A stretch of DNA of 64,000 bases from Verrucomicrobiales bacterium (lineage in GTDB: Bacteria; Verrucomicrobiota; Verrucomicrobiia; Verrucomicrobiales; V1-33): positions 1 through 64,000 of the forward strand of contig JAQGPJ010000055.1 of assembly GCA_028293125.1 (NCBI GenBank), in the 5' to 3' direction. Below the pieces are notes generated by a model, which saw nothing but the letters and a program-made list of their open reading frames with translations, did not search any database and was not told where the DNA came from. The translations under genes were made by a program, and so were the position numbers. Every line of letters begins with the position of its first letter. Position 1 is the first letter of the stretch. This document shows positions 7,634 to 56,104 of this stretch, in pieces.

Positions 7634-7637
7634 CGGG

Positions 7638-10173: not shown

Positions 10174-10181
10174 AAGGGTGT

Positions 10182-10254
10182 CGGGGTGACAGGATTTGAA
10201 CCTGCGGCCTCGTCGTCCCGAACGACGCGCGCTACCAAGCTGCGCCACACCCCG
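10182..10254 (-). tRNA. tRNA-Pro (anticodon CGG)
   Basis: A 73-base cloverleaf on the minus strand. The 7-bp acceptor is CGGGGTG/CACCCCG, the D stem GCGC/GCGC, the anticodon stem CGTCG/CGACG around loop TTCGGGA, and the T arm has loop TTCAAAT. The anticodon CGG reads CCG proline codons, frequent in this GC-rich genome. CCA is not encoded. Confidence 0.96.
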
Positions 10255-10304
10255 AGGTGCTGGTCGAGTCTAACGCTCCGGGTCCGGCGGCCCGGCGGCA
10301 GGTA

Positions 10305-11216: not shown

Positions 11217-11269
11217 GGTCGGTCAGGGTACGGCCCGCTCGTCCCCGGCTGCCGTGTCAGGCTGGGGGA

Positions 11270-11722: not shown

Positions 11723-11725
11723 GCG

Positions 11726-11755
11726 CTAGCGGGGAACGGGCGGCTGGGGACCGTG
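11726..11755 (-). CDS. C-terminal tail of an actinobacterial protein, probably penicillin-binding protein (fragment)
   Basis: The minus-strand frame closes with the ten residues HGPQPPVPR plus stop after a glycine run. In Actinobacteria a class A penicillin-binding protein (PonA type) commonly sits next to the metallophosphoesterase gene and ends in a Gly/Pro-rich tail, and the orientation convergent to yqeY fits. Only the tail is here; the rest is missing, replaced by verrucomicrobial sequence. The assignment rests on neighbourhood and tail composition, not on any domain. Confidence 0.4.
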   Translation of the reverse strand, partial: HGPQPPVPR

Positions 11756-31632: not shown

Positions 31633-32964
31633 TCAGCTCAGCGACAGCGCCCCTCCCTCGCAAAAGGGAGCGCTGCCGAATTTGCCGATGCCGTGTCCCA
31701 TGCCTTGAGCCACCGCCATCCACAGGCGGTTGTGGGCCACGTGGTCCACCTTGAGACTGCGGCCCATTTTGAAGCCGGCACCGCCGCCCACCATCACAAT
31801 GGGAATGTCGTCCAAGGTGTGCGAGTTGCCTTTGCCCAGTTCGTTGGTCCATACGAGCAGCGTGTTGTCCAGCATGCTGCCGCCGGCTCCGCCGGGTTCG
31901 GGGGTCTCCGCCAAGCGTTTGGCCAGATAGGCGAACTCGCCGCAGAACCATTTGTTGATGCGCTCCAACTTGTCCTGGGCGTCCGTGTTCTTGTCGGGCT
32001 CGTGAGAGAGATCGTGGTGTCCCTCCCCCACGCCCAGCCAGTTCATGCGCGCCTGGCCCACGGAGCGCATATACTGGAGCGTGGCCACGCGGGCCATGTT
32101 GTTGGCGAAACTGTTGACCAGCAGGTCGATCTGCATGCGGCTGATGGCCGGGGTGTTGTCATTGACAAGCTCAATTTTCGGATCCAGCTCCGGCACGGGA
32201 TGGCCGGCGTTTTCCGCCCCGCTGCGGCGCTGCTGGGCCATTTCGGACTCCACCTCGCGCACGAGCGTCAGGTGCTGGTCCAGCAGGCTGCGGTCCTCCG
32301 GGCTGAGGCGGGAGGAGATCTTTTTGAAGTCGGAGGCGATGCCGTCCAGCACGCTGACCAGGCTTTCCTGATCCTTCATCTGGCCGTAAAGCCGCTCCAG
32401 CATCTGGTGCGGGTCGTCGATCGGGGCCACAGGCTTGTTGGCCCCGGCATAACTCATGCGGGTCCACGGATCCGCGCGGTCAGGCACGGCCACACCGAAC
32501 TCCAACGAGCCGAAGCGGCTGCGGGTCTCCGGGCGGGATTGGAGAAAGTTCCGGATCTCCTGGTCAATGGAGATGCCGCTGGCCCAGCCGGCGGGGGTGT
32601 CGGATCCGCCCTGGATGTTCCCAGGAGCCAGCTCCGTGCCCGTCAGCAGGCAGCTCATGCCGCGCATGTGGCCGTCGCCGTCGCCGCGGACCTTGTTGGC
32701 GATACCTTTCAGAATGAGGGTGCGGTCCCGGAAAGGCGTGAGCGGCTCCAGGATGGAGGGCAGAACAAAATCAGCGCCCACAGTCTCCGGCCAGAATTTG
32801 CCGGGCACAATCCCGTTGGGCGAGAACATGATCACCAGACGCTGCGGACGCGGTTTGGCGGACGCCTCCTGCCCGAAGAGGCTCGACAGCCCGCCCACGA
32901 ACGGCAGTGCGGCGGAGGAGATTCCGAGATTGCGGAGAAACTGGCGGCGGGGGAGGGTTTTCAT
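31633..32964 (-). CDS. DUF1552 protein, Tat-secreted
   Basis: 443 residues starting [20 protein letters not shown], a twin-arginine signal. The body matches the DUF1552 family, related to DUF1501 and more distantly to sulfatase-like folds ([58 protein letters not shown]). These proteins are abundant in Planctomycetes and Verrucomicrobia, almost always next to a DUF1592-type cytochrome; their reaction is unknown. It follows the DUF1592 gene by 73 bp in one operon. A paralogue lies at 45,483. Confidence 0.92.
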
Positions 32965-33037
32965 GACAGGGGCAGGGCTATTTTCACGCGGGCCGGCGAA
33001 CTTCCGCGCGAAAGGGAAATGCTTCCATTTTAATTCG

Positions 33038-35389
33038 TCACCGGGCGGTCGTTTCTTTCCGGTTTTCAGCTGGCAGGCCCTGCGTGGCGGCGGTCAGAGC
33101 GCTACGCACCAGCAGTTCACGGATGCTGTAGCCAGAGTCCGTGAATTTTTTCTCCAGGGCCGCCATGGTGTCCGGACCGTAGGCCGCCGCCTGCTGCTTC
33201 ACCGTGTGCTGGAAGAGATGCCGGATGAAAGTCCGGTGCGCGGATCCGCTGCCGATGGCGAACGCCGCCACGTCCTGCGCTCCTTTGAGCAGTACCGGGA
33301 CGCCCTCGTCATTGGGGAAATCGCTGGCGGGATCCACCGGTTTGCCATTGTCCTCCGTCCGCCAGCGTCCCAGGGCGTCGTAGTGCTCCAAGGTGAAGCC
33401 CAGCGGATTGATGGTGCTGTGGCAGCCCATGCAGTTGGCCGGTTTTGTCAGTTCGGTGACCTTTTCCCGCATGGTGAAGGCGGGATTGAAGTCGGCATCA
33501 TGGAACTCCACGGCCTCCGGCGGGGCCTTCAGCAGGCGGCCCACAATGCTACGCGTCAGGAACACGCCCCGGTGGATGGGAGAACTGGTTTTCAGGTAGG
33601 ACAGTGAGGTCAGCAGGTACGGATGCGTCAGCAGCCCCACGCGCTCGCCGCCGGGGAAGCCCACCGGCTGGAAATCCGCGTCCTCCGGCACCTCCCGGCC
33701 ATACAGCGGGGCCAGGCGGTGGTTGAGCAGGAGGTAGTCCGCATTCAGCAACTGGCGGTAGTCCGATTCCGGGCTCCAGACCACTTTGTCGATAAACAGG
33801 TCCAGCGACCGCCGCAGATCACCCAGCAGCACCGGATCCACCATGGGAAACGCCGCCGTATCCTTCACGATGGTGTCCGGCTCCTTCAGCCCCAGCCACT
33901 GCTGGAAAAAGCCGCGCAGCTTTTCCTGCGAGCGGGGGTCCTCCGCCATGCGGCGGGCCTGGGCGTCGATTTCCCCCCGGTCGGCAAGTTTCCCCTCCGC
34001 CGCCAGTTGCAGCAGTTTTTCGTCCGGCACGGAATCCCAGAGGGTCAAGGCCAGCCGCGAGGCCACGGTGTAGCCGTCCGCCGCCTCCGGCTCAAAGGCG
34101 TCCGGGAACAGGAACCGCGGCGACATCAGCGCCGCCAGCGCCACCCGCTTCACCGCCACCTCCGGCGAGGGCGCGGCGGCGAAGGCCGGCTCCACCAGTG
34201 CCATGGCCTCGGCATCCGTCAGCGGACGCCGCCAGGCGGTGGAGGCAAACCGGCGGCAGAATTCCTTTAAACGGGTCAGGCGCTCCGGATCGTTGTTCTC
34301 CACCCCGGCCAGCCGGGGCAGATGCTCCGACACGTAGGTCGCCGCCGCCACGGAGCCCGCGGTCACCGCATCGTACCACGCCCGCGACACCGAGGTCCCG
34401 CGCTCATACCCGCTGCTGCGGTCATCCGCCGGAAAGGGGGCGGACACGGCGAACACCGGACGCCGTTTCGCAGGGGACAGATTCCGCGCCGGAATGATCT
34501 CCGCCGCACGGTGCGGCGGCTTCCACACCAGCTGGATGGACGCGGCCTTCTCCTTGAATTTGAAGTATTCCAGCCGCAGCGGGTAGGCCCGCCCGCCCAG
34601 CAGATGGATGGTGGCCTTCTCCTCCCGCACCTCGGGGCCGGAGCTCACCCAGGCGTCGATCAGCGCGTTGCGCTCGTCGTTCACCCACAGGCGGGCGCCG
34701 TTTTGGGTTCTGACGGTGAACTCATAAAGCCCGGTCTCCTCGGCGATCACCGCGCCGGTCCACCTGATGGAGAACTCCTGACTGCCCATCACCGCATCGT
34801 CCGGACTGCCGCCTCCGAAGTCGAAGGCCACCCGCAGGTCACGCCGGTCGAATTTGTCCTTCCCCTCCTTCTCCTTGGTTGGCTGGAAGCCGCTGCCGCC
34901 GTAATATTCCGACCTCAGCCCACGCTCCTTCGGATCCAACGGATCGGCCGCCGGCTGAAAACTCCCAATCACATCCGACATCGACACCCGGAACTGATTC
35001 ACGGTCAGCCGCGACTCATCCCGCTGCGCCGGCACCAGCGCCGCGCGGGCTCCCGGCGAGTAAAACGCGTGATAAATGTAAAACGCCACCGCCTCCGCGT
35101 CCGCCCCCACACAGGTGCCCTCCTTCCCCTCCGGCATGGTTTTCTCAATCCGTTTGGTCAGGGACGGCAGTGTGCGGTCCCCGAAAAGCGCATCGTCACA
35201 CTTCCCCGGCACGCCCCCACCCTTTAGCCCGTGGCACTCAATGCACATTTGCTGGTAAATCTCCGCTCCTTTTTGATTCAGGGCGTCATCCGCCATGCCG
35301 CGGCCCGCCGTCAGCGCCAAGGACACCGTCAGGACGGGCCACAACCGCAGGAAAGGGGCGGGGGGAAATACAGAACGGTCTGAATTCAT
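33038..35389 (-). CDS. DUF1592/DUF1588/DUF1585-type cytochrome c protein with PA14 domain
   Basis: 783 residues. After a signal sequence (to about residue 34) comes a c-type heme site CIECH (C49-H53). A PA14-like domain (about 155-290; [20 protein letters not shown], then [10 protein letters not shown]) interrupts before the DUF1595, DUF1592, DUF1588 ([20 protein letters not shown]) and DUF1585 blocks. CMGCH is a second heme-type motif. Family members are secreted multi-domain cytochromes of PVC bacteria, probably part of extracellular carbohydrate or other polymer oxidation; the biochemistry is unproven. I took the ATG at 35389, before the signal peptide. It is paired with the DUF1552 gene. 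Confidence 0.92.
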
Positions 35390-35546
35390 GAAGGAAGGGG
35401 GGGAGTCACCGCCCTCAGCGGTGCGCCAAACAGGCCAATGTTCCCGGAAAAACGTCACGCCGCCACTCCGATTATCAAAACTCTCCCCGCTCCGCAGCCC
35501 CATTCCCCCTTGCGTGGCCCCCGAAGTTCCAGACCTTTCGCCCATT

Positions 35547-36449
35547 ATGGCCGCGCAATCCCGCAACTCCTCCCACAAATTCAAACTCGCCCTCGTCCAG
35601 ATGTCGTGCAGCGATGACGTGGAGGCCAATCTCGTCAAAGCTGAAAAGCTGATCACCCAGGCGGCGGAGGGCGGGGCCAAGCTGGTCTGTCTGCAGGAGC
35701 TTTTCGCCTCCATCTATTTCTGCCAGAATCTGAATCACGAATATTTCGGTCTCGCGGAGTCCATCCCCGGCCCGCTCACGGAGCGGTTCGCCGCGCTGGC
35801 GGGGAAGCTGGGCATCGTGCTGCTGCTGCCGGTTTACGAAAAACGCGCCCCCGGCCTGTATTTCAATTCCTGCGCGGTGATCGACGCCGACGGATCGCTG
35901 CTCGGCGTTTACCGGAAGATGCACATCCCGCACGATCCGCAGTTCGAAGAGAAATTCTACTTCGCGCCCGGCGACCTCGGTTTCAAGGCCTGGGACACCG
36001 CCGTGGGCCGCATCGGAGTGCTCATCTGCTGGGACCAGTGGTATCCGGAGGGTGCCCGTCTGACCGCCCTGCGCGGGGCGGAAATCCTCTTTTTCCCCAC
36101 CGCCATCGGCTGGCTGGCTCCGGAGAAGGCGGAGTATGGCGAGCGTCAGTACCAGTCCTGGGAGATCATCCAGCGCAGCCACGCCGTGGCCAACGGCTGT
36201 TATGTCGCCGCGCCCAACCGCTGCGGGCATGAGGCTCCGAACCACAGCCCCGGCATCGAGTTCTGGGGCCGCAGCTTTGTGGCCGATCCCTCCGGACAAA
36301 TGGTCGCCCAGGCGGGCACGGAGAGCGACGAGGTGCTTTTCGCGGACATCGACCTAGACGAGGTCCGCGCCCAGCGCGAGGTCTGGCCCTTCCTGCGCGA
36401 CCGCCGCGTGGATGCCTACGGGGATCTCACCCAGCGCTTCCTCGGCTAG
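35547..36449 (+). CDS. aguB: N-carbamoylputrescine amidase
   Basis: Hydrolyses N-carbamoylputrescine to putrescine, CO2 and ammonia. The 300-residue nitrilase-family protein has the Glu-Lys-Cys triad at E51 (CLQELFAS), K124 (YRKMHIPHD) and C161 (ICWDQWYPEGA); the CWDQWYPE sequence is characteristic of AguB rather than other nitrilases. The ATG at 35547 fits the family start (KFKLALVQMSCS). The next enzyme in the same pathway, agmatine deiminase, follows 148 bp downstream. Confidence 0.94.
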   Translation: MAAQSRNSSHKFKLALVQMSCSDDVEANLVKAEKLITQAAEGGAKLVCLQELFASIYFCQNLNHEYFGLAESIPGPLTERFAALAGKLGIVLLLPVYEKRAPGLYFNSCAVIDADGSLLGVYRKMHIPHDPQFEEKFYFAPGDLGFKAWDTAVGRIGVLICWDQWYPEGARLTALRGAEILFFPTAIGWLAPEKAEYGERQYQSWEIIQRSHAVANGCYVAAPNRCGHEAPNHSPGIEFWGRSFVADPSGQMVAQAGTESDEVLFADIDLDEVRAQREVWPFLRDRRVDAYGDLTQRFLG

Positions 36450-40536: not shown

Positions 40537-40842
40537 ATTCCCGGCGCCTTGGCGGAGAGTGTCACCACTGACAATGGCTATCACAGCCGGAGGAGCTGGC
40601 CATCATCCGGAATGGGACCGGAGCGCACCGGCATCGGCGACGCCAACGCCGCGCGCCGACTTGATCGACTTTCCTCATTCCATGAAGTGATTCAGCAGGA
40701 TTGACTGCTGTTTTCAATGACATTCACCGCCCAACGGAAACGGAAAAGCTACCTTCGGATTCCAAGCCGGAGCGGGCGGAAATTAGTTTCGCAAAATAAT
40801 TTTGTCAGAAACGGGGCTGCAGCGTGTCTTCTTTGATACAAG
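40537..40842. other. intergenic region upstream of the sigma-FecR cassette
   Basis: 306 bp between polA and the sigma gene. The last 80 bp become AT-rich (TTAGTTTCGCAAAATAATTT), so the cassette promoter probably lies there, but no clear -35/-10 pair can be singled out. No gene seen. Confidence 0.5.
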
Positions 40843-41361
40843 ATGGATTTTTTGCCCCAGGATGACATCATCCGCACCCTGTTAGGGGCGCGGGGGAGGC
40901 TCAGTGCGGGGTTTTATGTCGTGCTCCACGATGTGCATGCGGCGGAGGATGTGTTTCAGGAAGTGATGGTGAAGGCTCTCACCCAGAAGGATTTGTTCAC
41001 CAATGAGGCGCAGTTGCTCTCCTGGGCGCGTGCGGTGGGGCGCAATGCGGGGCTGAATCTGTTGCGCAAGCTCAGCCGGGTGAGCGTGGGATTGCCAGCT
41101 GTTTTATTGGATATTATGGAGCAGGAGAGCGAGGCGTATGCCCGAAACGGGCGCGAGGAGGCATTGGCGGAATGTTTGGAAAAACTCCCAGCCGCCGCGC
41201 GCGAATTGCTAGAGTTGCGTTATTTCCATACCCTTCCCTGCAAGGAAGTGGCGCTGCGGACAGGATCGGGAGTGGAGGCCGTGTATCAAAAACTGTCGCG
41301 GTTGCACCGCACTCTCCGGGACTGCGTCGATCGGACTTTAACTCTTTATCCGGAACCCTGA
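40843..41361 (+). CDS. RNA polymerase sigma factor, ECF-like (sigma-70 family)
   Basis: 172 residues with sigma regions 2 (about 29-78: HDVHAAEDVFQEVMVKAL, then LLSWARAVGRNAGLNLLRK) and 4 (about 111-165: LEKLPAAARELLELRYF, then KEVALRTGSGVEAVYQKL). Region 3 is absent, as in ECF sigma factors. It matches the group of Verrucomicrobia and Planctomycetes sigma factors that precede a FecR-like anti-sigma gene. The stop codon overlaps the FecR start (TGATG), so the two are translationally coupled. Confidence 0.92.
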   Translation: MDFLPQDDIIRTLLGARGRLSAGFYVVLHDVHAAEDVFQEVMVKALTQKDLFTNEAQLLSWARAVGRNAGLNLLRKLSRVSVGLPAVLLDIMEQESEAYARNGREEALAECLEKLPAAARELLELRYFHTLPCKEVALRTGSGVEAVYQKLSRLHRTLRDCVDRTLTLYPEP

Positions 41362-42689
41362 TGACAATTCCCGATTCAGACCTGGATTTGTTTTTGGTGC
41401 ATTATCTGGACGGCACTTTGGACTCTCGTGAACTGGAACGTCTGATCGCGGAACTGGAGGGCAATGCCGGAGCAAGGCGAAAACTGCGCAGCATGGCGGA
41501 GCAGGCGGTCGCGGTCGCGGAAGCGGGCCGCTGCGGGGAGGCCCGGCAGCCTACCGCGCCCACCACGCGGTTGGTCGCTTTGCTTCCGGATGCCATAGGT
41601 GGCGGGAGAGATTGGCGCATCCCTTGGCGGAGGTTGGCCATATTGGCGGCGGGTTTGATGATGTTGGCTTCGGTGGGCTGGTGGGTGTCAGGCAAGCAAT
41701 CCCGACAAATGGAAATCACCCAGGTGCGGGGCGCAGTGAGCTGGAACGGACAGCAGGGCCGGACCCGGCAGGAGCCCGCCGCGGGTTTAAAATTCAAGGA
41801 GGGAACCCTTGAGTTGATAGGGGACGACCCGCTGGTCTCCGTGCGCATGGATGATGGCTCCACCATCACCCTGCACGGTGAAAGCGAGGCGTTTTTTTCA
41901 TATGAGAACGGTTGGATCGTGCGGCTGAGACGCGGGAGCTTCGAGGCTGCCGTCCAGCCGCAGCCTGCGGACAGGCCGATGCGGGTATTGACTCCCACGG
42001 CGGAACTTGTGGTAGTGGGCACGATATTTTCCCTGCTTGCTCAACCGGACGAAACCAGCTTGGAAGTGGTGGAAGGCCTCGTAACCATGCGCCGTCTGGC
42101 GGATGGCCGGAAAGCGTCCGTCAGGGGCCAGAATCGGCTGGTGATCACGCTTGATCACCAGACCACTCTGGCACCGCGGCAATTGGTGGCCCCGCCCACC
42201 ACGTGGGAGGCTGATTTCTCCATTTTTCCCCGGAATGCGGATGGCACTTGGGTTCCTCCCGGCAAAGATGCCCCCAGCGGTGCCCTCTCCGCCCGGCCTT
42301 ATATCGCAGGGCGGCGGGAGGACGGCGGCGTGCTGGTGCATCACGGAATCCTTTACCGCCACCATCAAGCCCTCGCGACGGTGCAGGCGGGAGCGGAGCT
42401 CCGGCTTAAGGTGCGCACCACGTCCGACACCAGCCTGCAGATTATGGCCGTCACCTACCGGCCGGAAGGTGGTTACGGTGGAAATTATGAGATCAATGCC
42501 GTTCCGTGTTTGCGGCCCCCGGATGGGGGATGGCGGGAGGTGAATATTCCTTTGCAAATGCTGCGGCAAAATTCACCGGTCACGACTGCCCTGCCTCCCG
42601 GAAACGTCATCGTGGCCATTCTGATCAATTCCTACACTTGGTCTGTCGGATTGGAGATCGGAGGCCTGGCCATCCGACCGCCGCAGTAA
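41361..42689 (+). CDS. FecR-domain anti-sigma-like membrane protein
   Basis: 442 residues. The N-terminal cytoplasmic part (1-90) would bind the sigma factor. One transmembrane helix follows at 91-109 (RLAILAAGLMMLASVGWWV), then a periplasmic FecR domain (about 115-250; MDDGSTITLHGESEAFFSYE; LTPTAELVVVGTIFSLLAQP). The C-terminal 180 residues form a further periplasmic beta-domain without known catalytic features. It starts on the last base of the sigma stop codon. By analogy with FecR it would pass an envelope signal to the sigma factor; here the downstream targets are probably the DUF1592 and DUF1552 genes. Confidence 0.88.
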   Translation: MTIPDSDLDLFLVHYLDGTLDSRELERLIAELEGNAGARRKLRSMAEQAVAVAEAGRCGEARQPTAPTTRLVALLPDAIGGGRDWRIPWRRLAILAAGLMMLASVGWWVSGKQSRQMEITQVRGAVSWNGQQGRTRQEPAAGLKFKEGTLELIGDDPLVSVRMDDGSTITLHGESEAFFSYENGWIVRLRRGSFEAAVQPQPADRPMRVLTPTAELVVVGTIFSLLAQPDETSLEVVEGLVTMRRLADGRKASVRGQNRLVITLDHQTTLAPRQLVAPPTTWEADFSIFPRNADGTWVPPGKDAPSGALSARPYIAGRREDGGVLVHHGILYRHHQALATVQAGAELRLKVRTTSDTSLQIMAVTYRPEGGYGGNYEINAVPCLRPPDGGWREVNIPLQMLRQNSPVTTALPPGNVIVAILINSYTWSVGLEIGGLAIRPPQ

Positions 42690-42720
42690 ATCCGTGACCG
42701 TCATTTCCGTTTTACTAACT

Positions 42721-45468
42721 ATGTTACCACGCTTACTCTTGCTTTCCAGTGTATCGTTGACCTTGGCTGCGCATGCCAGGGCTGATGCGGAATACCGGGA
42801 AATCGTCGCCCCCTTCCTCGAAAAGCACTGCATGAATTGCCATGATGCGGATACCGCCCGGGCCGGCTTCCGCATGGATACGCTGGGCGGGGACTTCACG
42901 GCAGGCAACAACGCCGGTCTGTGGAAAGAGGTGATGGACCGGATCAACTCCGGTGAGATGCCGCCGAAAAAGAAGGCGCGGCCCGAAGCGAAGGAATCAT
43001 TCGCAGTCGTCTCCTGGATCGCGCAACAGCTCGCGGAAACCACCAAACGGGCCCAGGGCGCAGGTGGGCGGGTGCCACTGCGGCGGCTGAACCGGGTGGA
43101 ATACGCCAACACAGTGAGCGACCTCTTTTCTTTGGATCCGCAATATGCGCGCCGCATCGAGAAAGAACTGCCCGCCGATGGCCAAGTGGGCGGATTCGAC
43201 CGTGGTGCCGCGGCGCTTTTCATGGATGAAGGCCAGCTTGCCCAATACATGGCCGTCGCCGATATGTTGTTGGATGAGGCGGTCTTCATGGAGCAGCCAC
43301 AGACGCAGAAACTGGCCTGGGATGCGGTCAGGGAAAAGTGGATCCACGGCATCGGCGTATCCTGGAAAGACGGGACGGGCAAAGTGGTGGACGACAATCC
43401 GACTCCGGAATTCATCGCCAGCCTCAAGGAGCCATTGGCCCGGATCCAAGTGGATGACAATAATGAAGCCAATGCGGCGGCGCACCGTTATGTGCCGCAT
43501 GGGCCCATGGCCTTCGCGGTCAAAAACGGGGGCGTGGAGTATCTTTCAGGAGGAAACAACTACCGCAGCCACGACAATCAGCGCAGCGTTTTTCACCAGC
43601 ATGACTGGGCGAAAAAAGGCGTGACCCGCGATGGCTGGTATCGCTTGAGGTTCAAGGCCGGCGCTTTCGCCGGGGAGGGCGGGGAGAAACAGAAGGAGGT
43701 AAAGCTGGTGATGGAGTATTGCTATGGATCTCCCATCCAAGTGGTGAAAGGCGTGGTTATCGATGCTCCTTTGGAAGCCCCGAAGGATTACGAAATTCTG
43801 GTCTATCTCGAGCAGGGCCCCCCGGGCATGGACCGGAGCTGGAACCTCGCCTGGGACAATGGCAATAAAGATGTGGTGATTGAAAACCCGGCGTTTCAGG
43901 CCGTGCAATGGGCTCCGGTGCTCGCGGCTGGTGATATTGAAAAAGCATTGCTGGAAAAGAAACCAGCGGATCAGATTGCCGCGTTGAGGAAAAAGTCCGA
44001 AGCTGCCCTGGCAGCCGCCGCCAGGAACCGCAAAAACTTCGCCGGACCGTTATGGATATACGATCCGGAACTGGATCCTGCCAAACGCCCGCGTCTCTGG
44101 ATGGGCCCGATGGAATGGGAAGGCCCGCTGATGGAATGGCCTCCCCAAGGGCGCACGGCGCTGCTTCCGGAAGTTGCGGAGCGGAGTGACGTCGAATATG
44201 TGAGGGAAGTTTTTCGTCGGTTTCTGCCACGGGCTTACCGGCGTCCGGCGCTGGAGGAGGAAGTGGAAAGCGTCGCGCAATGGACTTTACTATCAAAAAA
44301 TGAGCGCCAGCTCAGTCTGGAACAGGCGGTGCGGGAAGGCGTGAAGAATGTATTATGCTCCCCCGCCTTCCTCTATCTGGGCGGCGAGCGGGGATCTGGT
44401 GACGGGGTCAAAGCCAAAACGGCCGACCAGCAGCCGCTGGACCCATGGCAGCTCGCCAGCCGCTTGTCCTACCTGCTCTGGAGCGGCCCGCCGGATGACC
44501 GGCTGAGGGCGCTGGCGGCGGATGGCAAATTAGGCGCTGCCGCTGTGCTGCGGGAGGAGGTGAAGCGCATGATCGCCGACCCCAAAGCCGGGGAATTTGT
44601 CCGAAGTTTTGCGGGCCAGTGGCTCAGTGTGCGGAATTTCGACAACGGAACCCCGCCCAACCGCGATGTTTACGGGCACTATGATGATGCGCTGCGGGAA
44701 AGTTCCCGGCGCGAGCCGCTGGAGTTTTTCAGTGAGGTCCTGCGTCGGGATTTACCGGCCACTTCGTTTCTGGAAAGTGACTTTCTGGTGATCAATGAGC
44801 GGCTCGCCAAACACTATGGGATTGAGGGTGTGACGGGTGATGACTTTCGCAGGGTGGCCACGCCCGCCGATGGCCGCCGGGGGGGAGTGCTGGGCATGGC
44901 GGGCATCCTGACTTTTCTGGCTGATGGATCCCGCACGCTGCCTGTGCGCCGGGCGGTGTGGGTGCTGGATGCTCTGTGGAACCAGCCGGTGCCTCCCCCG
45001 CCTCCGAATGCCGGCAACCTGCCAGCGATCAAGGAGAAAAACCTCAGTGTGCGCTCGCGCCTTGACCAGCACCGGCTCTCGGAAAACTGCGCCAGTTGCC
45101 ACGACCGTGTGGATCCATTCGGTCTGGCTCTCGAAAATTACGATGCCACCGGCCATTGGCGGGACCGTCAGAACGGCGAAGGAATGAGCGGAAATGACGA
45201 CGACCCGGCGCTGGATGTGAGCGGACAGTTGTCCGGCGGGCGCAACTTCGCCACCGTGCAGGAATTCAAAGCCAGGCTGTTGGACGAAAAGAAATTTTTC
45301 ATCAAAGGATTCACGGAAAAATTACTCTGTTATGCGCTCGGACGTCCTATCAATTATGGCGACTATCCCGTGGTGGAGCAGATCACCACTCATGCCGCGC
45401 AGCATGAATACCGTCTTCAGGAAATCATCCAAGCCACCGTCGCAAGCCCCTTTTTCACTTCTAAATAA
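42721..45468 (+). CDS. DUF1592/DUF1588/DUF1585-type cytochrome c protein
   Basis: 915 residues starting MLPRLLLLSSVSLTLAAHAR, a signal peptide; a GTG nine codons upstream is an alternative start. A heme-type motif CMNCH (C37-H41) opens the mature protein, followed by DUF1587-like sequence (RRLNRVEYANTVSDLF), a middle region of about 300 residues without PA14, then DUF1595/DUF1592 (LASRLSYLLWSGPPDDRLRA) and DUF1588 with a second heme-type motif CASCH, followed by DPFGLALENYDATGHWR. The DUF1585 block ends it (KGFTEKLLCYALGRPINYGD). Its enzymatic role is not known. Paired with DUF1552 14 bp downstream. Confidence 0.92.
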   Translation: MLPRLLLLSSVSLTLAAHARADAEYREIVAPFLEKHCMNCHDADTARAGFRMDTLGGDFTAGNNAGLWKEVMDRINSGEMPPKKKARPEAKESFAVVSWIAQQLAETTKRAQGAGGRVPLRRLNRVEYANTVSDLFSLDPQYARRIEKELPADGQVGGFDRGAAALFMDEGQLAQYMAVADMLLDEAVFMEQPQTQKLAWDAVREKWIHGIGVSWKDGTGKVVDDNPTPEFIASLKEPLARIQVDDNNEANAAAHRYVPHGPMAFAVKNGGVEYLSGGNNYRSHDNQRSVFHQHDWAKKGVTRDGWYRLRFKAGAFAGEGGEKQKEVKLVMEYCYGSPIQVVKGVVIDAPLEAPKDYEILVYLEQGPPGMDRSWNLAWDNGNKDVVIENPAFQAVQWAPVLAAGDIEKALLEKKPADQIAALRKKSEAALAAAARNRKNFAGPLWIYDPELDPAKRPRLWMGPMEWEGPLMEWPPQGRTALLPEVAERSDVEYVREVFRRFLPRAYRRPALEEEVESVAQWTLLSKNERQLSLEQAVREGVKNVLCSPAFLYLGGERGSGDGVKAKTADQQPLDPWQLASRLSYLLWSGPPDDRLRALAADGKLGAAAVLREEVKRMIADPKAGEFVRSFAGQWLSVRNFDNGTPPNRDVYGHYDDALRESSRREPLEFFSEVLRRDLPATSFLESDFLVINERLAKHYGIEGVTGDDFRRVATPADGRRGGVLGMAGILTFLADGSRTLPVRRAVWVLDALWNQPVPPPPPNAGNLPAIKEKNLSVRSRLDQHRLSENCASCHDRVDPFGLALENYDATGHWRDRQNGEGMSGNDDDPALDVSGQLSGGRNFATVQEFKARLLDEKKFFIKGFTEKLLCYALGRPINYGDYPVVEQITTHAAQHEYRLQEIIQATVASPFFTSK

Positions 45469-45482
45469 CCCCGCGTTCCAAC

Positions 45483-46832
45483 ATGAATATTCAGACCCAT
45501 CATTGGCGGCTGGGCCGCCGCACTTTTCTCAAAGGCATGGGCGCGTCCGTGGCCCTGCCATGGCTGGAGGCGATGAGTGCGAACGCCCAGAATATCACCA
45601 CGGCCGGTTCCATGGCTGCGGGGGAAATTCCACGCCGGGCCATGTTCACCTACTGGGGGCTGGGCTTGGAGATCCGCGGCTTCACTCCGCCGGACACGGG
45701 CAGGAATTATACAATGACACCTTCCCTGAGACCGTTGGAACCATATAAAGACGATTGCACGGTCCTGACCGGACTTGCCGCCTACAGCGGCGGACACGGC
45801 TCCTGCAGCTGTCTCCTTACCGGCATGAATACGGTGCGCAATGCACAGACTCTGACCTCCGTCGACCAGCAGTTGGCCGCCTTCCACGGCAGCGCCACCC
45901 GCTTTCCCTCGCTGGTGCTGGGAACGGTGCGGGAGACCGGCTTTGGCGGTCCTTTTCCCATGACGCTCTCCTGGAGCCGCAATAAAACTCCGATCACTCC
46001 CGAAAACCGGCCTGAAGTGTTGTTCGAGAAACTTTTCGGGGCGGAAACCAATGACACCATGGCCAAAGCGAAACTGGCGCTGGCCGCGCGCGGCAGCCTG
46101 TTGGATTCAATCCGGGAGCAGGCCGCCGCTCTCCAACGACGGGTGGGCAAGGATGACCGTGAACGCCTTGATCAATATTTCACCTCCATCCGCGACCTCG
46201 AAGACAGGATCAAGGTCGAGGGCGAATGGATCGGCCACCCTAAACCGAAGGTGGATAAACCGGATTTCGGCGATGGTTCTCCGCGCGACCGCATTGCCGG
46301 CGACGGACGCGGCTACAGCGAATACACGAGGCTGATGTTTGACATGATCGCGCTCGCCTTTCAGACGGACAGCACCCGCGTGGTGAGCCACATTCCCCGG
46401 ACGGAGGGTGACGAGGCGCATTGCTTCCGCTATCTCACCAACAGCAGGTGGGATCTTCACACACTCACGCATCACAACGAGCAGGAGGACAAAATTGCCT
46501 TTTGGCGGGAACTGGATGCGCTCTACATGGCGGAGTGGGCTTACTTTTTAGGCAAGCTGAAAGGGGTGCGGGAAGGTGCTGGCTCCCTGCTGGACAACAC
46601 CATCGCCGCCTGGGCCACCACCAACGGCGGACTTGGCGCCCATGACTCCAATCTGCTCCCGCTGATCCTTTCCGGCGGCTCTTCTCTCGGCCTGAAACAT
46701 CAGGGCCACCTCGTGCAGAAAGATGTGCCGCTGGCGAATGTCTGGCAGACGGTCGCCGCCAAAGTAGGGATGCCGCTGCCAGAGAATTTCCAAGGAGGAC
46801 TGGCCAAAGGCATCCTTACGGAATTGGGATAA
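45483..46832 (+). CDS. DUF1552 protein, Tat-secreted
   Basis: 449 residues. LGRRTFLKGMGASVALPWLE is a twin-arginine signal. The body matches DUF1552 (SLLDNTIAAWATTNGGLGAH, LPLILSGGSSLGLKHQGHLV). It closes the sigma-FecR-DUF1592 cassette and parallels the pair at 31,633-35,389. Sequence between the two DUF1552 proteins is diverged, so this is not a recent tandem copy. The remnant gene downstream overlaps its 3' end on the other strand. Confidence 0.92.
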   Translation: MNIQTHHWRLGRRTFLKGMGASVALPWLEAMSANAQNITTAGSMAAGEIPRRAMFTYWGLGLEIRGFTPPDTGRNYTMTPSLRPLEPYKDDCTVLTGLAAYSGGHGSCSCLLTGMNTVRNAQTLTSVDQQLAAFHGSATRFPSLVLGTVRETGFGGPFPMTLSWSRNKTPITPENRPEVLFEKLFGAETNDTMAKAKLALAARGSLLDSIREQAAALQRRVGKDDRERLDQYFTSIRDLEDRIKVEGEWIGHPKPKVDKPDFGDGSPRDRIAGDGRGYSEYTRLMFDMIALAFQTDSTRVVSHIPRTEGDEAHCFRYLTNSRWDLHTLTHHNEQEDKIAFWRELDALYMAEWAYFLGKLKGVREGAGSLLDNTIAAWATTNGGLGAHDSNLLPLILSGGSSLGLKHQGHLVQKDVPLANVWQTVAAKVGMPLPENFQGGLAKGILTELG

Positions 46833-48064: not shown

Positions 48065-48383
48065 GGATTTTTATTAAAAAACGCATCCACTGATAACCTG
48101 AATATTTTTCTACGCAACAACGGTCAGTAGAAATACTTAACTTGATCTTTTAATCACATATACTTGTACTATTCACATCCAAAATGCTGACGGAAGCCCT
48201 TGTGCGGAGGATGCATCGGCGCGGAATCGCGTCCAATGACGGCGGATACAGAACAGATAAGCAAGTCTTTTTCCGGTCAAAACCGACCCGCCGCTGGAAG
48301 GCAATCGCGGCTTGACCCCCGGACCGGCCCGCCTAGGCTGCCGCTCTTTGCCCGAAGACAAAGACGCAGACGACAACGACTTT
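48065..48383. other. divergent intergenic region upstream of lpxC-fabZ
   Basis: 319 bp. The left 120 bp are AT-rich (leader and promoter of the minus-strand secreted protein); the right part is GC-rich and holds the promoter-like pair at 48,312-48,339. No ORF or RNA gene seen. Confidence 0.5.
48312..48339 (+). promoter_or_regulatory. sigma70-type promoter candidate for lpxC-fabZ
   Basis: TTGACC (48312-48317) and TAGGCT (48334-48339) with a 16-bp spacer. The predicted transcript would start near 48,346, leaving a leader of about 38 bases before the ATG at 48,384. A match by eye to consensus; not proof of activity. Confidence 0.5.
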
Positions 48384-49691
48384 ATGGAATATCAGCACAC
48401 GCTGGCCAAATCGGCCACGCTCGCCGGCACTTCTCTCCACACAGGGGAGAAGGTCACGCTCACCATGACCCCTGCCCCTCCGGGACACGGCATCCGGTTC
48501 CGCCGCATTGATCTGGAGGATCAGCCCTTCATCCCCGCCAGCGTGGACAAGGTCCAGATGGTCGAGCGGGCCACCACCTTGGCGGAGGGCAGCGTGAAGG
48601 TGCACACTGTGGAGCATGTGATTAGTGCCCTGGCGGGCATGGGCGTGGACAATGCGCTCATTGAAATGGATGCCAACGAGCCTCCCATCGGTGACGGCTC
48701 GGCCCTTGCTTATGTGGAATGTATCAAGAAAGCCGGTATCCAGAAGCAGGACGCCCCGCGCGGGGTTTACGAAATCCGGGAGCCGGTCTGCATCGAGACC
48801 AAAACCGGCAGCATTCTGATGGTGGTGCCGGATAAAAAGTTCCGCATCTCCTGCACCCAAGTGGGTCCCGAAGGCCGGCTGACCCAGTACTACAGCACGG
48901 AGATCACCCCCGAGATCTACGAGAAGGAGATCGCCCCCGCCCGGACCTTTGTTTTTTACGAGGACGTCAAGGGCCTGCTGGACAAGGGCCTGATCAAGGG
49001 CGGCAGCCTGGAGAACGCCATCGTCATCCGCGACGACAGCGTAATGAGCAAGGAGCCCCTGCGCTTCAAGGACGAGTTCGTCCGGCACAAGATTCTGGAC
49101 ATCATCGGGGACCTGATGCTGAGCGGAAAGCGCATCATGGGCCATGTTATCGCCGTGAAGCCCGGCCATGGACCCAACACTGACATGGCCCGCCGCCTGA
49201 AGCAGGACTACAGCCGCATGATGAGCATGGTCCCGCCCGTCAGTATCCCCAGCGGGGAGGCGGTGATGGACATCAACGAGGTGATGCACATCCTGCCACA
49301 CCGTTATCCCTTCCTGATGGTGGACCGCATCGTCGGATTCGAGGGGGAGAACAAGTGCACGGGCGTGAAATGCGTAACCATCAACGAGCCCTATTTTCAA
49401 GGCCACTTCCCCGGACACCCCGTCATGCCAGGGGTGCTGCAGGTTGAGGCCATGGCCCAGGTGGCCAGCATCCTCATGCTGCGCCGCCCTGAGAATCAGG
49501 GAAAAATCGGCTACTTCATGAGCGCCAACGAGGTGAAGTTCCGCAAACCCGTAATGCCCGGCGACACCCTGTTCATCGAGGCCGAAATCCTGAAGGTGAA
49601 GCGCAGCATCGGCGTGGCCCGCGCCCGCTGCGTGGTGAACAACGAGACCGTCAGCGAGGGCGAACTCATGTTCAGCCTGCTCGACCGCTGA
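48384..49691 (+). CDS. lpxC-fabZ: bifunctional UDP-3-O-acyl-N-acetylglucosamine deacetylase / 3-hydroxyacyl-ACP dehydratase
   Basis: 435 residues joining two enzymes. The LpxC part (1-285) makes the committed step of lipid A synthesis; zinc ligands H78 (VHTVEHVISAL), H235 and D239 (RFKDEFVRHKILDIIGDL), and the acid/base pair E77 and H262 (KPGHGPNTD) are all present. The FabZ part (298-435) dehydrates 3-hydroxyacyl-ACP, with catalytic H345 and E355 (GHFPGHPVMPG, then VEAMAQ). Such fusions are known in Bacteroidetes, Chlamydiae and relatives. Both enzymes compete for the same acyl-ACP, so the fusion may balance lipid A against phospholipid. lpxA follows 124 bp downstream. Confirms a Gram-negative envelope. 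Confidence 0.97.
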   Translation: MEYQHTLAKSATLAGTSLHTGEKVTLTMTPAPPGHGIRFRRIDLEDQPFIPASVDKVQMVERATTLAEGSVKVHTVEHVISALAGMGVDNALIEMDANEPPIGDGSALAYVECIKKAGIQKQDAPRGVYEIREPVCIETKTGSILMVVPDKKFRISCTQVGPEGRLTQYYSTEITPEIYEKEIAPARTFVFYEDVKGLLDKGLIKGGSLENAIVIRDDSVMSKEPLRFKDEFVRHKILDIIGDLMLSGKRIMGHVIAVKPGHGPNTDMARRLKQDYSRMMSMVPPVSIPSGEAVMDINEVMHILPHRYPFLMVDRIVGFEGENKCTGVKCVTINEPYFQGHFPGHPVMPGVLQVEAMAQVASILMLRRPENQGKIGYFMSANEVKFRKPVMPGDTLFIEAEILKVKRSIGVARARCVVNNETVSEGELMFSLLDR

Positions 49692-51982: not shown

Positions 51983-54688
51983 TCAGTTAATAACATTTGA
52001 AACCAAATGAATGGTGGACGCACCCAGTCCGGCGTAAGCCGCCGGATGGCAGGTCAGGACAATGATTTGCAGACCCCGCCCGGCGGCCAGATCCAGCATC
52101 CGCTGCAGGGGCAGCATCCGGTCCGGATCACTGTGGGTGAAGGCGTCATCAAAGACCAGTGGCAGGCAGCCGTCGTGATCCGCCGCCAGAATCTCCGCGA
52201 CCGCCAGACGCACCGCGGCGGCCAGCTGCTCGCGGGTGCCGCCGCTGAGGCTGGCGAAGCTGAACGCGCCCATGTCCTGACCGGGCCGGGACGCCAAGTG
52301 CAGGCCGGTGAACCGGCGGTCCTCCAATGCCAGGGAAGCCCGGCTGCCGGGACCGAAAAGGCATTCCAGATAACCGGAGATGCGGTCGGCCAGCGGCTGC
52401 GTGAACTGGTCCGCCAAGGCCTGCTGCTCCTCGGTGAAAAGCCCGTGCAGCAGGCTGACCGCCCCGGCGTGGCGCTGCACGGACAGCAGTTTTTCCCGCA
52501 GCTCCTCCACCTGCGCCTCCGCCATGGCCAACTCCGCCGCCGGGTCCTCCACGCCGTCGGAGCACAATCCGTTCAAGGCCACGGCACGACGTGTCTCCGC
52601 CTCATTTTTCCGGGCTGCAGCCTGATCCAGAGCGCGCGTCAGGCGCTCCAGATCGCCGGTCACCAGGTGTGGCTGGAGCTTTGCCAGACCGACGCGGCAT
52701 TCCTCCAGGGATTCAGCGGCGGCCTGGCTTTCCAGCCGCACGCGGCTCAGGGCCTCTTTGCGGGCCTCATCCGCTCCGTGCTGGTCCAGCAGCAGCCGCA
52801 GCTGGGCCTGGAGGTCGCTCAGTTCCCGGTTCCGCGTCTGCTGGACAGCGGCATGGTCCGCCAGCAGCTTTGAAGCCTCCTCCAAGGACCCCGCTGCGGC
52901 GTCGCGCACTCCTCTGGCGGTTAGAAAAGCGGTCTCCGCCTCCTCCATTCCCTGGCGCGCCAGTTGCAGAAAAGCCATGGCTCCGTCCGGTTCCGCGGGC
53001 AGTGCCACATCCGGCAGCCAGGCTGACCGTCGGGAAACCTCGGCCTGCGCCGTCAGATGCGCCTCCCGCGCTGCCGACAAGGTTTTTGGGGAAACCGAGC
53101 GTCCCATGCCCTCCAGCCCGGCCTCCGCCGCCCGGATACGCGTGGCCAGCTCCGCCCGCCGCGCCGCCGCCAAGGACGCCTCCTCCACCGTCGCCAGTCC
53201 GCAGACGGACAACTCCCCGCGCAGGGAGGCATCAGCCTCCGCGCATTTCCGCCGCGCCTCCTCGAGGCTGGTGCCGCCGCCGGGGCGCAGCCGCAGCCTC
53301 AAGGAAGGGCCATAATAAATCTCCGTGTCCTCAGTCAGGATGCGGCGCGAACCTGCCGGCATCACACTGCCGCCCGCCTCCACCGGACCGTCCGCCGCCA
53401 GCACCTCCAGCGTGGTGGCCATAGCCCGCAGAGCGGCCCGGGCGCTGGCCTGGGCGGCATCCAGCTGCTGAATCCGATTCAGCCGCGCCGCGTCCACATC
53501 CGGCAGGGCCGCGGCCTCCTGACGCAGATTGGCAAGCTCCGCGCCGCGGGCCTCCATCTGGCTCATGGCCGCGGAAAGTTCCTGCAGCCGTGCCGCGGCC
53601 CCCAGCTGGGCAGTCCAGGCCTCGGCCAAGTCCCGCCGCTGGCGCGCTGTTTCACGGGCGGCGGCGGCGGCTTCGTGCCGGCTGGCGGCCTCCGCGGCGC
53701 GGGCGGCAGCCAAGGCGCGGGCCTCCTCCAGAGACTGGCCGCGGGCCTGGCCGGGGGACAGACTGGTCTCCAGCCTTTTCAATTCCTCCCGCCGGCGGGA
53801 AATCAGGATCTCCGCCGCCTCCATGGCCGCCAAGCGTGATGCCGCATCCGCCGCCGGTCCCTGACAGGCCGCCTCGCGCTGCCGCAGGGCCATGATTTGA
53901 TCCTGCCGGGCCAGCGCCTCCCGGTGCTGGCGGTGCAGGGACTCCAGACTCCCGGCCAGCTCTGTCAGGATGGCGGTGGCGGATTCGTAGTCCCTGACTG
54001 TCTGGTGCAGGGATTCGGATTTCCGCAGCGCCGCGTCCCGTCTTGCCTGCGCTTCCTCCAGGGCTATGGCGGCCCTCCCCACTTCAGAGCCCGCTTTCGG
54101 CTTTTTGTTCAGGTTGAATATCTCAGCCCAGGCGGTGGCGAACCGCGCCGCCAGACGGCCATCGAGCTCCGACAGCATGGCGGCGGCACCGCCGGAGTCC
54201 TGCAGACGCTGCAGCAGCCCCCCGTGCTGGGTGGTGGCGTGCGGCGTGGGGTCATCCCCGCTTTGTCCCTGCCAAGCCCACAGATGCGGCCACTGCGCCA
54301 CCGCGGCCCGGCCGCTGAGCCCGGCCTCCACGCCCAGCAGCCCGGCCAGCGCCGCCTCCGCCTCCTCGCCTGACAAAGCCGCCTCCCCCTGAGTGGTCAG
54401 GCTGGCGGTGCCATTGCCGGCGAAACGCTTGCGAAGATTCCAGACTTTTCCCCGGGCCGCGAATGACAGATCCACCTCCGGCACGCCGCCCAGCGCCGGC
54501 TGCATGGCCCGGTGCTCCGCGGTGGCACCTTTGGCTTTTAGAAACAGCGCCCGGTGCACGGCCTCGGCCAGCGTGCTTTTCCCCGCCTCATTGGGCCCGG
54601 CGATCAGAGTGCGGCCCGCATCAAAGTGGAGGACACCTGTATCCTGGTGAATGCGGAAGCAGCGCAGGCGGACAGAGATCAGACGCAT
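51983..54688 (-). CDS. SbcC/YhaN-like ATPase with long coiled coils
   Basis: 901 residues with the SMC/Rad50 plan: Walker A GPNEAGKST (31-39), a long Ala/Glu/Arg-rich coiled coil (about 170-740, e.g. EEARALAAARAAEAASRHEA), then the ABC signature LSGGTREQ and Walker B LPLVFDDAF near the C terminus. It lacks the CxxC zinc hook of SbcC/Rad50 at the coil tip, so it fits the YhaN-type branch better. It would work with the upstream nuclease (46 bp before its start) in processing DNA ends. Start ATG at 54688 gives the typical MRLISVRLRCFRIH beginning. Confidence 0.88.
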   Translation of the reverse strand: MRLISVRLRCFRIHQDTGVLHFDAGRTLIAGPNEAGKSTLAEAVHRALFLKAKGATAEHRAMQPALGGVPEVDLSFAARGKVWNLRKRFAGNGTASLTTQGEAALSGEEAEAALAGLLGVEAGLSGRAAVAQWPHLWAWQGQSGDDPTPHATTQHGGLLQRLQDSGGAAAMLSELDGRLAARFATAWAEIFNLNKKPKAGSEVGRAAIALEEAQARRDAALRKSESLHQTVRDYESATAILTELAGSLESLHRQHREALARQDQIMALRQREAACQGPAADAASRLAAMEAAEILISRRREELKRLETSLSPGQARGQSLEEARALAAARAAEAASRHEAAAAARETARQRRDLAEAWTAQLGAAARLQELSAAMSQMEARGAELANLRQEAAALPDVDAARLNRIQQLDAAQASARAALRAMATTLEVLAADGPVEAGGSVMPAGSRRILTEDTEIYYGPSLRLRLRPGGGTSLEEARRKCAEADASLRGELSVCGLATVEEASLAAARRAELATRIRAAEAGLEGMGRSVSPKTLSAAREAHLTAQAEVSRRSAWLPDVALPAEPDGAMAFLQLARQGMEEAETAFLTARGVRDAAAGSLEEASKLLADHAAVQQTRNRELSDLQAQLRLLLDQHGADEARKEALSRVRLESQAAAESLEECRVGLAKLQPHLVTGDLERLTRALDQAAARKNEAETRRAVALNGLCSDGVEDPAAELAMAEAQVEELREKLLSVQRHAGAVSLLHGLFTEEQQALADQFTQPLADRISGYLECLFGPGSRASLALEDRRFTGLHLASRPGQDMGAFSFASLSGGTREQLAAAVRLAVAEILAADHDGCLPLVFDDAFTHSDPDRMLPLQRMLDLAAGRGLQIIVLTCHPAAYAGLGASTIHLVSNVIN

Positions 54689-54734
54689 GGAGTAAAAATC
54701 GGAATCGGTGGATTGGGCCGCGGTTGTAAAGGCA

Positions 54735-55916
54735 TCAGGACCCCTCCATGCAGGCGGTGTGCAGCTCCCGGAGGGCCACTCGGGCTGTGGCCGAGGCCTC
54801 GTCATCGCCTGCGGCCATGGCGGTGAGGCGCGCGGCCACGCGGGAAATCAGGGGATCGCCAGCGCGGCGCGTCAGCTCCTCGGTTTCCCCGGGAGCCGGA
54901 GCCACACGGGTCCGGTCCAGCAGCTTCAGACGCAGCAGGCGGGCGCTCCAGGAGTCGAGCAGGCCGGCCAGTTCCGCCGCCGCCGCAATGCCCAGCGATC
55001 CCGACAGCTCCAGCCGCAGCAGATCCTGATGCGCCCGCTGCCCCAGCCAGTCTGAAATTTCCACCCGCAGCCGGTCCAGAGCCGCATCCTCCGAAAAGAA
55101 GCCCACCGCCCGCCGCCACGCCAGCCGCGCGGTGCTGACCCGGGTGACCACCGGCAGCAGGCCGCGCGCCGCCTCCACCGTCAGCACATAGCCGGGCTCG
55201 TTGGTTTCCCCTTTGGCGAAGCGGTCGGGCTCCGGTGTGCCGCAGTAGCTGGCTTTGGGGGAAATTTCCTTGACCCCATGCCAGTCGCCCAGCGCGATGT
55301 AGTCCAGCGCCGACTGGTCCAGCCGGTTCAGCTCCAGCAGGTTTCCGGCGGATCCACCGCTGTCGTCGTCCTCCCCGCTGCCGCCACTCCCAAACCCCTG
55401 CACGCTGCCGTGCGCCACCACGATCCTGGGCTTGTCCGGAGGCAGGGCGTCCAGCACCCCGTCCCCCCGCAGCCATGCCGTGGGGTCTGACGACTCCGCC
55501 CGCCGCCGCAGGGGACAGGGCAGCAGCACCGCCTGCGGCAGCTCCACCGGCTCCGGCTTCAGCAACAGGTGAAAATTCGGGGCCAGCACGGCGCATTCCC
55601 GCCGGAAAAAATCCTGCTCCCACACACTTCCGGGACCGCCGTGGTCATGATTCCCCGGAATGGCGTAAACCGGCAGCCCCATGCGTCCAATGGCGCTGCA
55701 GGCCGCAGCCACGGTGGACTGGGTGACGCTGGGGGAATCAAACAAATCCCCGGCCACCACGATGAACGCCGCGCCGGACTCCCGGGCCGCCTGGCCGATG
55801 CGGTCCAGCACCGCCAGCCGCTCCTGCCGCACCAGGGCGCGCTTTTCGGGATCCTGGATCCCGGCAAAGGGCTTCCCCAGCTGCCAGTCGGCGGTGTGCA
55901 GAAATCGGACGGTCAC
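54735..55916 (-). CDS. SbcD/YhaO-like metallophosphoesterase nuclease
   Basis: 393 residues. The two-metal calcineurin fold shows FLHTADWQLG, VVAGDLFDSP, IPGNHDHGG, VVAHGSVQGF and LGDWHGV, the five signature motifs of Mre11/SbcD nucleases. Start GTG at 55916 is chosen because VRFLHTADWQLG is the family start; no Shine-Dalgarno is visible, so the exact start is uncertain. It forms an operon with the SbcC/YhaN-like ATPase and is divergent from the tolQ-type gene. Confidence 0.9.
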   Translation of the reverse strand: MTVRFLHTADWQLGKPFAGIQDPEKRALVRQERLAVLDRIGQAARESGAAFIVVAGDLFDSPSVTQSTVAAACSAIGRMGLPVYAIPGNHDHGGPGSVWEQDFFRRECAVLAPNFHLLLKPEPVELPQAVLLPCPLRRRAESSDPTAWLRGDGVLDALPPDKPRIVVAHGSVQGFGSGGSGEDDDSGGSAGNLLELNRLDQSALDYIALGDWHGVKEISPKASYCGTPEPDRFAKGETNEPGYVLTVEAARGLLPVVTRVSTARLAWRRAVGFFSEDAALDRLRVEISDWLGQRAHQDLLRLELSGSLGIAAAAELAGLLDSWSARLLRLKLLDRTRVAPAPGETEELTRRAGDPLISRVAARLTAMAAGDDEASATARVALRELHTACMEGS

Positions 55917-56104
55917 AGGATGGAAAACACGGGCTTTCCCCTGCCTTGGCACATTCCGAAGGGCTGGTCAATACCCGGCCCCGCTTTGAACAGGCGGTGC
56001 CCGGCATTTGTTTGCAAAACAGGAAAAGAACAGCGGTGCCGTCCATCACGGGATCAAAGCCATCCTTGCAGAGACCGGGGGGGAGGTTACGGTCCGCGTC
56101 CACC

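Follow-up and report, generated by a model that had tools for sequence, protein, structure and literature searches.

A sigma factor-FecR operon with DUF1592 and DUF1552 genes in a Verrucomicrobiales bacterium, a candidate periplasmic carbohydrate-sensing system

The locus considered here is a run of four genes on contig JAQGPJ010000055.1 of a Verrucomicrobiales bacterium (assembly GCA_028293125.1), of which positions 1 to 64,000 were analyzed; this whole stretch of 64,000 nucleotides (nt) is referred to as the window. Four open reading frames (ORFs) form one tight series on the forward strand at 40843-46832, exactly as a preliminary description of the DNA, made from its letters alone, had placed them. 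The first encodes an extracytoplasmic function (ECF) sigma factor of 172 amino acids (aa) (40843..41361, +), matching PF08281 (1e-8) and PF04542 (6e-7) in Pfam; its best NCBIfam model, TIGR02989 (Rhodopirellula/Verrucomicrobium sigma), scores 108.6 bits, under the cut-off of 124.55. The second encodes a FecR-type anti-sigma factor of 442 aa (41361..42689, +; PF04773, 2.6e-12), and the reported overlap of one base is present, the sigma stop and FecR start codons sharing position 41361. An ECF sigma gene thus adjoins a FecR-domain anti-sigma gene, which is the FecI/FecR pairing. Beginning 4 nt past the FecR stop, the third gene encodes an exported cytochrome-type protein of 924 aa (42694..45468, +) with the architecture PSCyt1-DUF1587-DUF1595-DUF1592-DUF1588-DUF1585, all six domains of the DUF1592 family (PSCyt3 type) lying above the Pfam cut-off. 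It carries a haem c motif CMNCH at residues 46-50 (42829..42843, +) and a second, CASCH, in the DUF1588 region (45088..45102, +). The fourth gene begins 14 nt past the DUF1592 stop and encodes a DUF1552 (HXXSHH) protein (45483..46832, +; PF07586, 2.1e-74, 251.4 bits against a cut-off of 30) with the N-terminal twin-arginine signal RRTFLK. The Pfam domains and this signal agree with the multi-domain DUF1592 protein and Tat-type DUF1552 protein named beforehand, and the proposal that the DUF pair stands under a sigma/FecR system of its own was borne out. With 1 nt of overlap and then only 4 and 14 nt between genes, an intergenic promoter could not fit in front of any of the last three.

The FecR protein was modelled with AlphaFold from 19 FecR sequences (pLDDT 81, pTM 0.49), and at this pTM the domain arrangement is uncertain. 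The model comprises N-terminal helices, a helix at residues 89-110 (41625..41690, +) that is probably transmembrane, judging by sequence and model helix, a FecR/PupR domain and a beta sandwich. The expected periplasmic FecR/PupR-type domain, residues 146-276 (41796..42188, +), was assigned by Pfam and by VIA structural alignment, with Z scores of 13.9 to PupR (6ovk_R) and 13.2 to 4m0n; a Protein Data Bank (PDB) sequence search with FecR likewise returned FecR-domain matches. The C-terminal beta sandwich, residues 279-442 (42195..42686, +), is carbohydrate-binding-module-like and is the candidate sensor: it aligns with the laminarin-binding carbohydrate-binding module (CBM) 8qx6 (Z 12.5, 140 aligned residues, root-mean-square deviation (rmsd) 2.8), with CBM29 1oh3 (Z 11.3) and with CBM11 1v0a (Z 10.8). 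VIA covered the Foldseek candidates, so that other folds are possible. The preliminary description had left the input to FecR wholly unspecified; a CBM fold at the C-terminus narrows that question in part. Other FecR proteins of the survey described below end in Laminin_G_3, another lectin-like fold (by Pfam for one and by a custom profile for 50 of 101); these 50 have a DUF1549 partner in 19 cases and a DUF1592 partner in none.

The DUF1552 protein was modelled from 18 sequences (pLDDT 74.8, pTM 0.76), and the model has the fold of the alkaline phosphatase/sulfatase superfamily. It aligns with PafA 5tj3 (VIA Z 17.5, 274 aligned residues, rmsd 4.1) and with 6fny (Foldseek E 1.8e-5, TM about 0.4). 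Profile comparison with hhalign links DUF1552 to DUF1501 (97.4 over 364 columns) and DUF1501 to sulfatases (94.6), the direct DUF1552-sulfatase value being only 22.4. The position occupied in sulfatases by the formylglycine Cys is taken in DUF1501 by an invariant His, which in turn corresponds to His105 of DUF1552 (codon 45795..45797, +), invariant in 21 aligned DUF1552 proteins; these correspondences come from profile alignments and do not amount to a superposition of active sites. The DUF1552 protein lacks the formylglycine motif CxPSR and matches no sulfatase model in Pfam at E<=1; PDB sequence searches with the DUF1552 and DUF1592 proteins gave nothing informative. The term "cytochrome pair" used previously for the two exported products therefore fails for DUF1552, whose modelled fold is that of sulfatases. 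In freshwater Verrucomicrobia, sulfatases lie near such cytochromes and carbohydrate-binding modules are fused to them, according to the parts of PMC5615132 consulted; these features, together with a PA14 domain in the second DUF1592 protein of the window, point to carbohydrates.

The recurrence of sigma-FecR beside such genes was surveyed in 98 stretches around FecR genes, picked on FecR similarity alone, and in the window. The stretches comprise 17 of 24 FecR matches outside the window's own genome, one place in that genome (L084; L, G and C numbers are our handles for loci, genomes and contigs) and the 80 top-scoring rows, about half of those listed, with rows on G174:C7 and G247:C11 passed over; another own-genome place, L085, was excluded because the custom FecR profile recognized no FecR there. 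Genes were the longest ORFs, assigned by custom profiles with Pfam checks on a subset, and 94 of 101 recognized FecR genes, those with an adjacent sigma gene and a downstream ORF, were kept, while 7 were dropped. The pairs belong to the bacterial class of the window, and in 31 of the 94 the gene following sigma-FecR encodes a DUF1549/DUF1592 cytochrome or a DUF1501/DUF1552 partner (DUF1549-type 25, DUF1592 3, DUF1552 2, DUF1501 1, other 63); a gene of these four families lies directly upstream of sigma in 6. A cytochrome gene directly downstream (28/94) compares with about 0.9% of genes, a background that takes at least 1732 matches (at least 1302 DUF1549 and at least 430 DUF1592) in 233 Mb of 41 genomes and assumes one gene per 1.2 kb. 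The binomial value is 1.5e-34 with kinship ignored, and sigma-FecR beside these cytochromes is a general pattern, beyond chance. DUF1549/DUF1501 is the commoner partner (26 of the 31). Homology between the DUF1592 and DUF1549 bodies without PSCyt1 was considered and is unsupported (hhalign 3.4% over 73 columns).

Three close FecR relatives served as queries in a search of named genomes, which yielded 20 loci of the window's FecR subfamily, two of them ending at FecR. The loci come from Verrucomicrobiaceae, from Prosthecobacter-, Akkermansia- and Chthoniobacter-labelled metagenome-assembled genomes (MAGs) and from Planctomycetota. A DUF1592 and/or DUF1552 gene follows on the same strand, at most three genes downstream, in 13 of the remaining 18; two of these 13 (L217 and L231) come from genomes already in the survey (G026 and G160), and two (L232 and L234) are planctomycetal. 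The exact order sigma-FecR-DUF1592-DUF1552 is found elsewhere in L220 and in planctomycetal L232, and L221 has FecR-DUF1592-DUF1552 with the sigma side off the contig. The arrangement therefore recurs as had been anticipated, but the exact four-gene order is in the minority; as a strictly conserved, widespread unit it is ruled out, since both the order and the DUF1592 subfamily vary. As separate observations, the L232 MAG has DUF1592-DUF1552-DUF1549-DUF1501 in one run behind a single sigma-FecR, L222 encodes an ankyrin-repeat protein (6827-8365) between DUF1552 and the sigma gene, and L219 has an ORF sized like it, with a site of the promoter motif described below near the ORF start.

Several DUF1592 subfamilies are linked to this FecR subfamily. 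In a quick LG tree of 59 DUF1592 rows, whose long branches make its details soft, the 13 linked rows need 7 changes against a shuffled mean of 12. The window DUF1592 protein groups with L117-L119, its nearest orthologues (62-65% identity). Co-descent of this protein with its own regulator was ruled out, these nearest relatives being unlinked; the regulator was therefore coupled to different DUF1592 subfamilies, and repeated coupling accounts for the distribution better than simple descent does.

A promoter motif connects the regulator with its presumed targets in relatives. A search for two-box k-mers in front of 100 sigma genes failed to yield a clean motif, since the upstream stretches extended into coding sequence; the motif was first spotted by eye upstream of sigma in close relatives and afterwards tested. 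It reads TGTCAG(G)-N17(16)-CGTT and lies just before the sigma start codon. Across 349 loci (3.01 Mb), TGTCAG-N17-CGTT has 27 hits, whereas eleven other spacings have 1-9 each; a recognized gene start is close by for 15 of these 27 and for 1 hit across all other spacings. Overlapping loci count a few of these sites twice, and the loci had been fetched for sigma or DUF genes, which makes whole genomes preferable as a test. In genome G026, all four TGTCAGGN16CGTT sites precede relevant genes (sigma, a DUF1552-DUF1592-DUF1552 cluster, another DUF1552 and DUF1592), and the backwards control gives 0 sites. Five other genomes scanned alongside have 2-11 sites each, 22 in total, after which only the sigma gene of G015 and a sigma-like ORF 250 nt on in G029 were recognized.

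The form TGTCAGGA-N15-CGTT occurs at 20 sites in 11 genomes with close FecR relatives, against 3 in the backwards control; two of the 11 genomes have no site. Sigma, DUF1592 or DUF1552 comes directly after the site in 12 of the 20 cases (4 each), with the DUF targets at separate loci, while a sulfatase gene follows in 1 and other genes in 6; at one further site an ORF follows and a DUF1552 start comes 150 nt later. The chance value for these targets is about 1e-24 and is a guide only, given that several DUF targets look orthologous across genomes, which makes the 8 DUF sites fewer than 8 independent events. The leader to the start codon measures 8-13 nt in 16 of 17 checked sites and 18 nt in one, so the messages would be nearly leaderless. 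In G269, sigma-FecR (L228) has no DUF neighbour, yet a DUF1592 gene begins 8 nt past the only site of that genome. With a matching promoter signal before both the switch and further DUF1592/DUF1552 genes, the switch probably controls those genes in relatives. Three side observations concern the motif. A sulfatase gene in L280 (G260) starts 8 nt past a site, which suggests that the regulon may include sulfatases. In L264 (G270) a short ORF past the site resembles, by eye, a decayed sigma gene start, and a DUF1552 ORF begins about 150 nt further on. In the LamG-FecR/DUF1549-DUF1501 branch (L077, L080, L138, L140), TTCGTTAAAT and then a GGAAA-TAC-like stretch were seen by eye upstream of sigma, possibly a second promoter type.

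In the window, a promoter-like site, TGTCAG-N17-GTCT (40803..40829, +), stands 13 nt before the sigma start, with the -35 half and geometry found in relatives. The shared promoter suggested earlier for the sigma and cytochrome genes is thus seen before sigma, DUF1592 and DUF1552 genes in relatives, whereas the window's own genome has no copy beyond the operon itself; for want of further copies there, we infer sigma control for the window's own operon only.

From the gene order, its recurrence, the folds and the motif in relatives, all computed here, we infer carbohydrate as the signal, proteolysis as the relay, joint action of the exported products and, in the window's own genome, sigma control. 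The best explanation, to which we give a fair but far from complete degree of belief, is that the four genes make up a self-contained operon for periplasmic sensing, analogous to polysaccharide sensing by RsgI but built on FecR. The N-terminal helices of FecR would hold the ECF sigma factor at the inner membrane, and its CBM-like periplasmic end would most likely bind carbohydrate directly, no TonB receptor being encoded nearby. By analogy, FecR would be proteolysed upon binding and would thereby free the sigma factor, which would transcribe its own operon from the promoter just upstream, so that all four proteins are made together; in relatives, the same sigma type would also fire separate DUF1592/DUF1552 genes through TGTCAGGA-N15-CGTT. 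Once exported, the two products would work jointly on this carbohydrate or on fragments of it, DUF1552 contributing a sulfatase fold whose active site is altered and DUF1592, with its two haem motifs, serving as its redox partner. A broader claim is possible but tentative, and we would expect it to fail more often than hold: that a carbohydrate-sensing FecR branch of the Planctomycetes-Verrucomicrobia-Chlamydiae (PVC) bacteria, an independent counterpart of RsgI, drives a dispersed DUF1592/DUF1552 regulon from nearly leaderless promoters, its His-for-formylglycine sulfatase-fold protein and di-haem partner forming an undescribed periplasmic redox route for carbohydrate processing.

Several observations weigh against the sensing-operon explanation. 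The modelled CBM fold is not proof of sugar binding by FecR, and the same residues align with the complex I assembly factor 7zkq at Z 12.3. The -10 half of the window site is GTCT, against CGTT in relatives; the forward and backwards counts of TGTCAGGN16CGTT are both 3 in the window's own genome, no forward site precedes a recognized DUF gene, and TGTCAGAN16GTCT occurs there as the window site alone. An adjacent downstream DUF gene is absent in 5 of the 18 subfamily loci, the DUF1592/DUF1552 label is unclustered on the FecR tree (6 changes for 6 rows), and the nearest orthologues of the window DUF1592 protein, L117-L119, stand without sigma-FecR. The own genome also holds three matches to the TonB plug family PF07715, all on other contigs. 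The overall interpretation of the preliminary description is supported in part: it holds for the dedicated regulator, the recurrence and the motif, and not for the window pair's nearest orthologues.

The plug proteins lead to the alternative that survives best, although we judge it unlikely: ordinary FecI/FecR/TonB signalling, with a receptor elsewhere, perhaps for iron or haem, and the DUF genes as iron- or haem-linked targets. The match of the periplasmic FecR domain to PupR, the three plug proteins and the haem motifs of DUF1592 would all fit it. None of the plug genes is on the window contig, however: a scan of that contig (C92) for PF07715 gave no match, in line with the earlier statement that a TonB receptor gene is missing here, though a transducer may be encoded at a distance. 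Moreover, FecR has the additional C-terminal CBM-like domain, and its recurrent partners are sulfatase-fold and cytochrome proteins, with one motif site before a sulfatase gene. Rather less probable is a general envelope-stress system in which FecR would respond to damage of the envelope, with the DUF pair as one target among many. It draws on Rhodopirellula, where, in the portion of PMC2754498 consulted, an ECF sigma factor that is up in heat, cold and salt is put forward as the regulator of a PSD1/PSCyt2 protein, but relatives have only a small number of motif sites, concentrated before sigma, DUF1592 and DUF1552 genes, where a stress regulon would be broader, and the FecR end has a binding-module fold. 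Least credible is an accidental link, in which a mobile DUF1592-DUF1552 pair landed behind sigma-FecR without coming under its control: the unlinked orthologues, the divergent -10 half, the single site in the genome and a search of four congeneric genomes that turned up no clear cassette would suit it, but gaps of 4 and 14 nt exclude a separate promoter and the same FecR subfamily is repeatedly linked to other DUF1592 subfamilies.

Those four congeneric genomes (68-89% complete) gave no match to the window FecR in three and a weak one in the fourth. In the window's own genome there are only three FecR matches, the window FecR being the strongest. A first FecR scan of genome_contigs with the window protein as sole query gave no match. 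The genome has 8 DUF1588 and 7 DUF1552 matches, forming by position six adjacent pairs, two of them within the window. The second of these DUF1592-DUF1552 pairs (31633-35713, -) has no sigma-FecR beside it and is distant from the first; its DUF1592 protein, which carries the PA14 domain, has its nearest relative found in L129 (47-48% identity). The operon is flanked by polA upstream and, downstream, by an LpxC-FabA/FabZ-type fusion, in which LpxC and the dehydratase form a single ORF (48312-49691, +). Transfer was rejected as a reading of composition, the GC content of the cassette (0.598) not being distinctive beside the window (0.649) and the neighbouring lpxC (0.607). Window positions 1-12000 have a GC content of 0.71-0.73 against 0.58-0.66 over most of the remainder, and 52001-56000 is a second high-GC stretch (0.695).

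PVC bacteria encode many DUF1592/DUF1552 and DUF1549/DUF1501 proteins, for which no function was found in the literature searched; a dedicated regulator with a recognizable sensor domain and a short promoter motif offers a handle on the ligand and the co-expressed genes. If the proposal is true, the input to FecR signalling can be a ligand that binds directly, in place of a TonB receptor. Word searches of titles and abstract starts, limited to the terms used, returned no description of a CBM-type FecR or a sigma-FecR-DUF1592 unit, and a literature word search with the same limit did not find the promoter motif with its DUF1592/DUF1552 targets.

As far as the consulted parts of these sources go, the gene pairing (PMC5615132) and an ECF factor for a PSD1/PSCyt2 protein (proposed in PMC2754498) are already known. 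The PSCyt2/PSCyt3 genes of freshwater Verrucomicrobia, with their neighbouring families of unknown function, are the same enzyme pairs, but by word search the main text of PMC5615132 lacks "Sigma factor" and "FecR", and the parts consulted propose no regulation. In Rhodopirellula baltica (RB10049/RB10051), an ECF sigma factor is likewise proposed as the PSD1/PSCyt2 regulator (PMC2754498, citing Studholme et al.), but the proteins are of the DUF1549/DUF1553 type, and FecR, a sensor domain and a promoter motif go unmentioned in the parts consulted. FecI/FecR systems such as PupI/PupR (PMC9249621 and PMC8144685) share the ECF sigma factor beside FecR and the same periplasmic FecR domain, whereas the window cluster has no TonB-dependent transducer and its FecR has the extra CBM-like C-terminal domain. 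SigI/RsgI of Clostridium thermocellum, according to the portion consulted of PMC12203970, also relies on an anti-sigma factor in the membrane that can carry a carbohydrate-binding module as its extracytoplasmic end and that controls a sigma factor together with genes for secreted proteins. It differs in that the window sigma factor is of the ECF class, the anti-sigma factor is FecR-type, the module is expected to be periplasmic with putative sugar binding, and the targets are DUF1592/DUF1552 genes, where those of RsgI are cellulosome genes (PMC12203970, same portion). FecR is the one Pfam family that the window protein matches at E<=1, with no RsgI-type anti-sigma N-terminal domain, and for this reason the protein is not classed as RsgI, although it may work like one; with a sugar-binding-type end and no TonB receptor nearby, it resembles RsgI more than a classical FecR.

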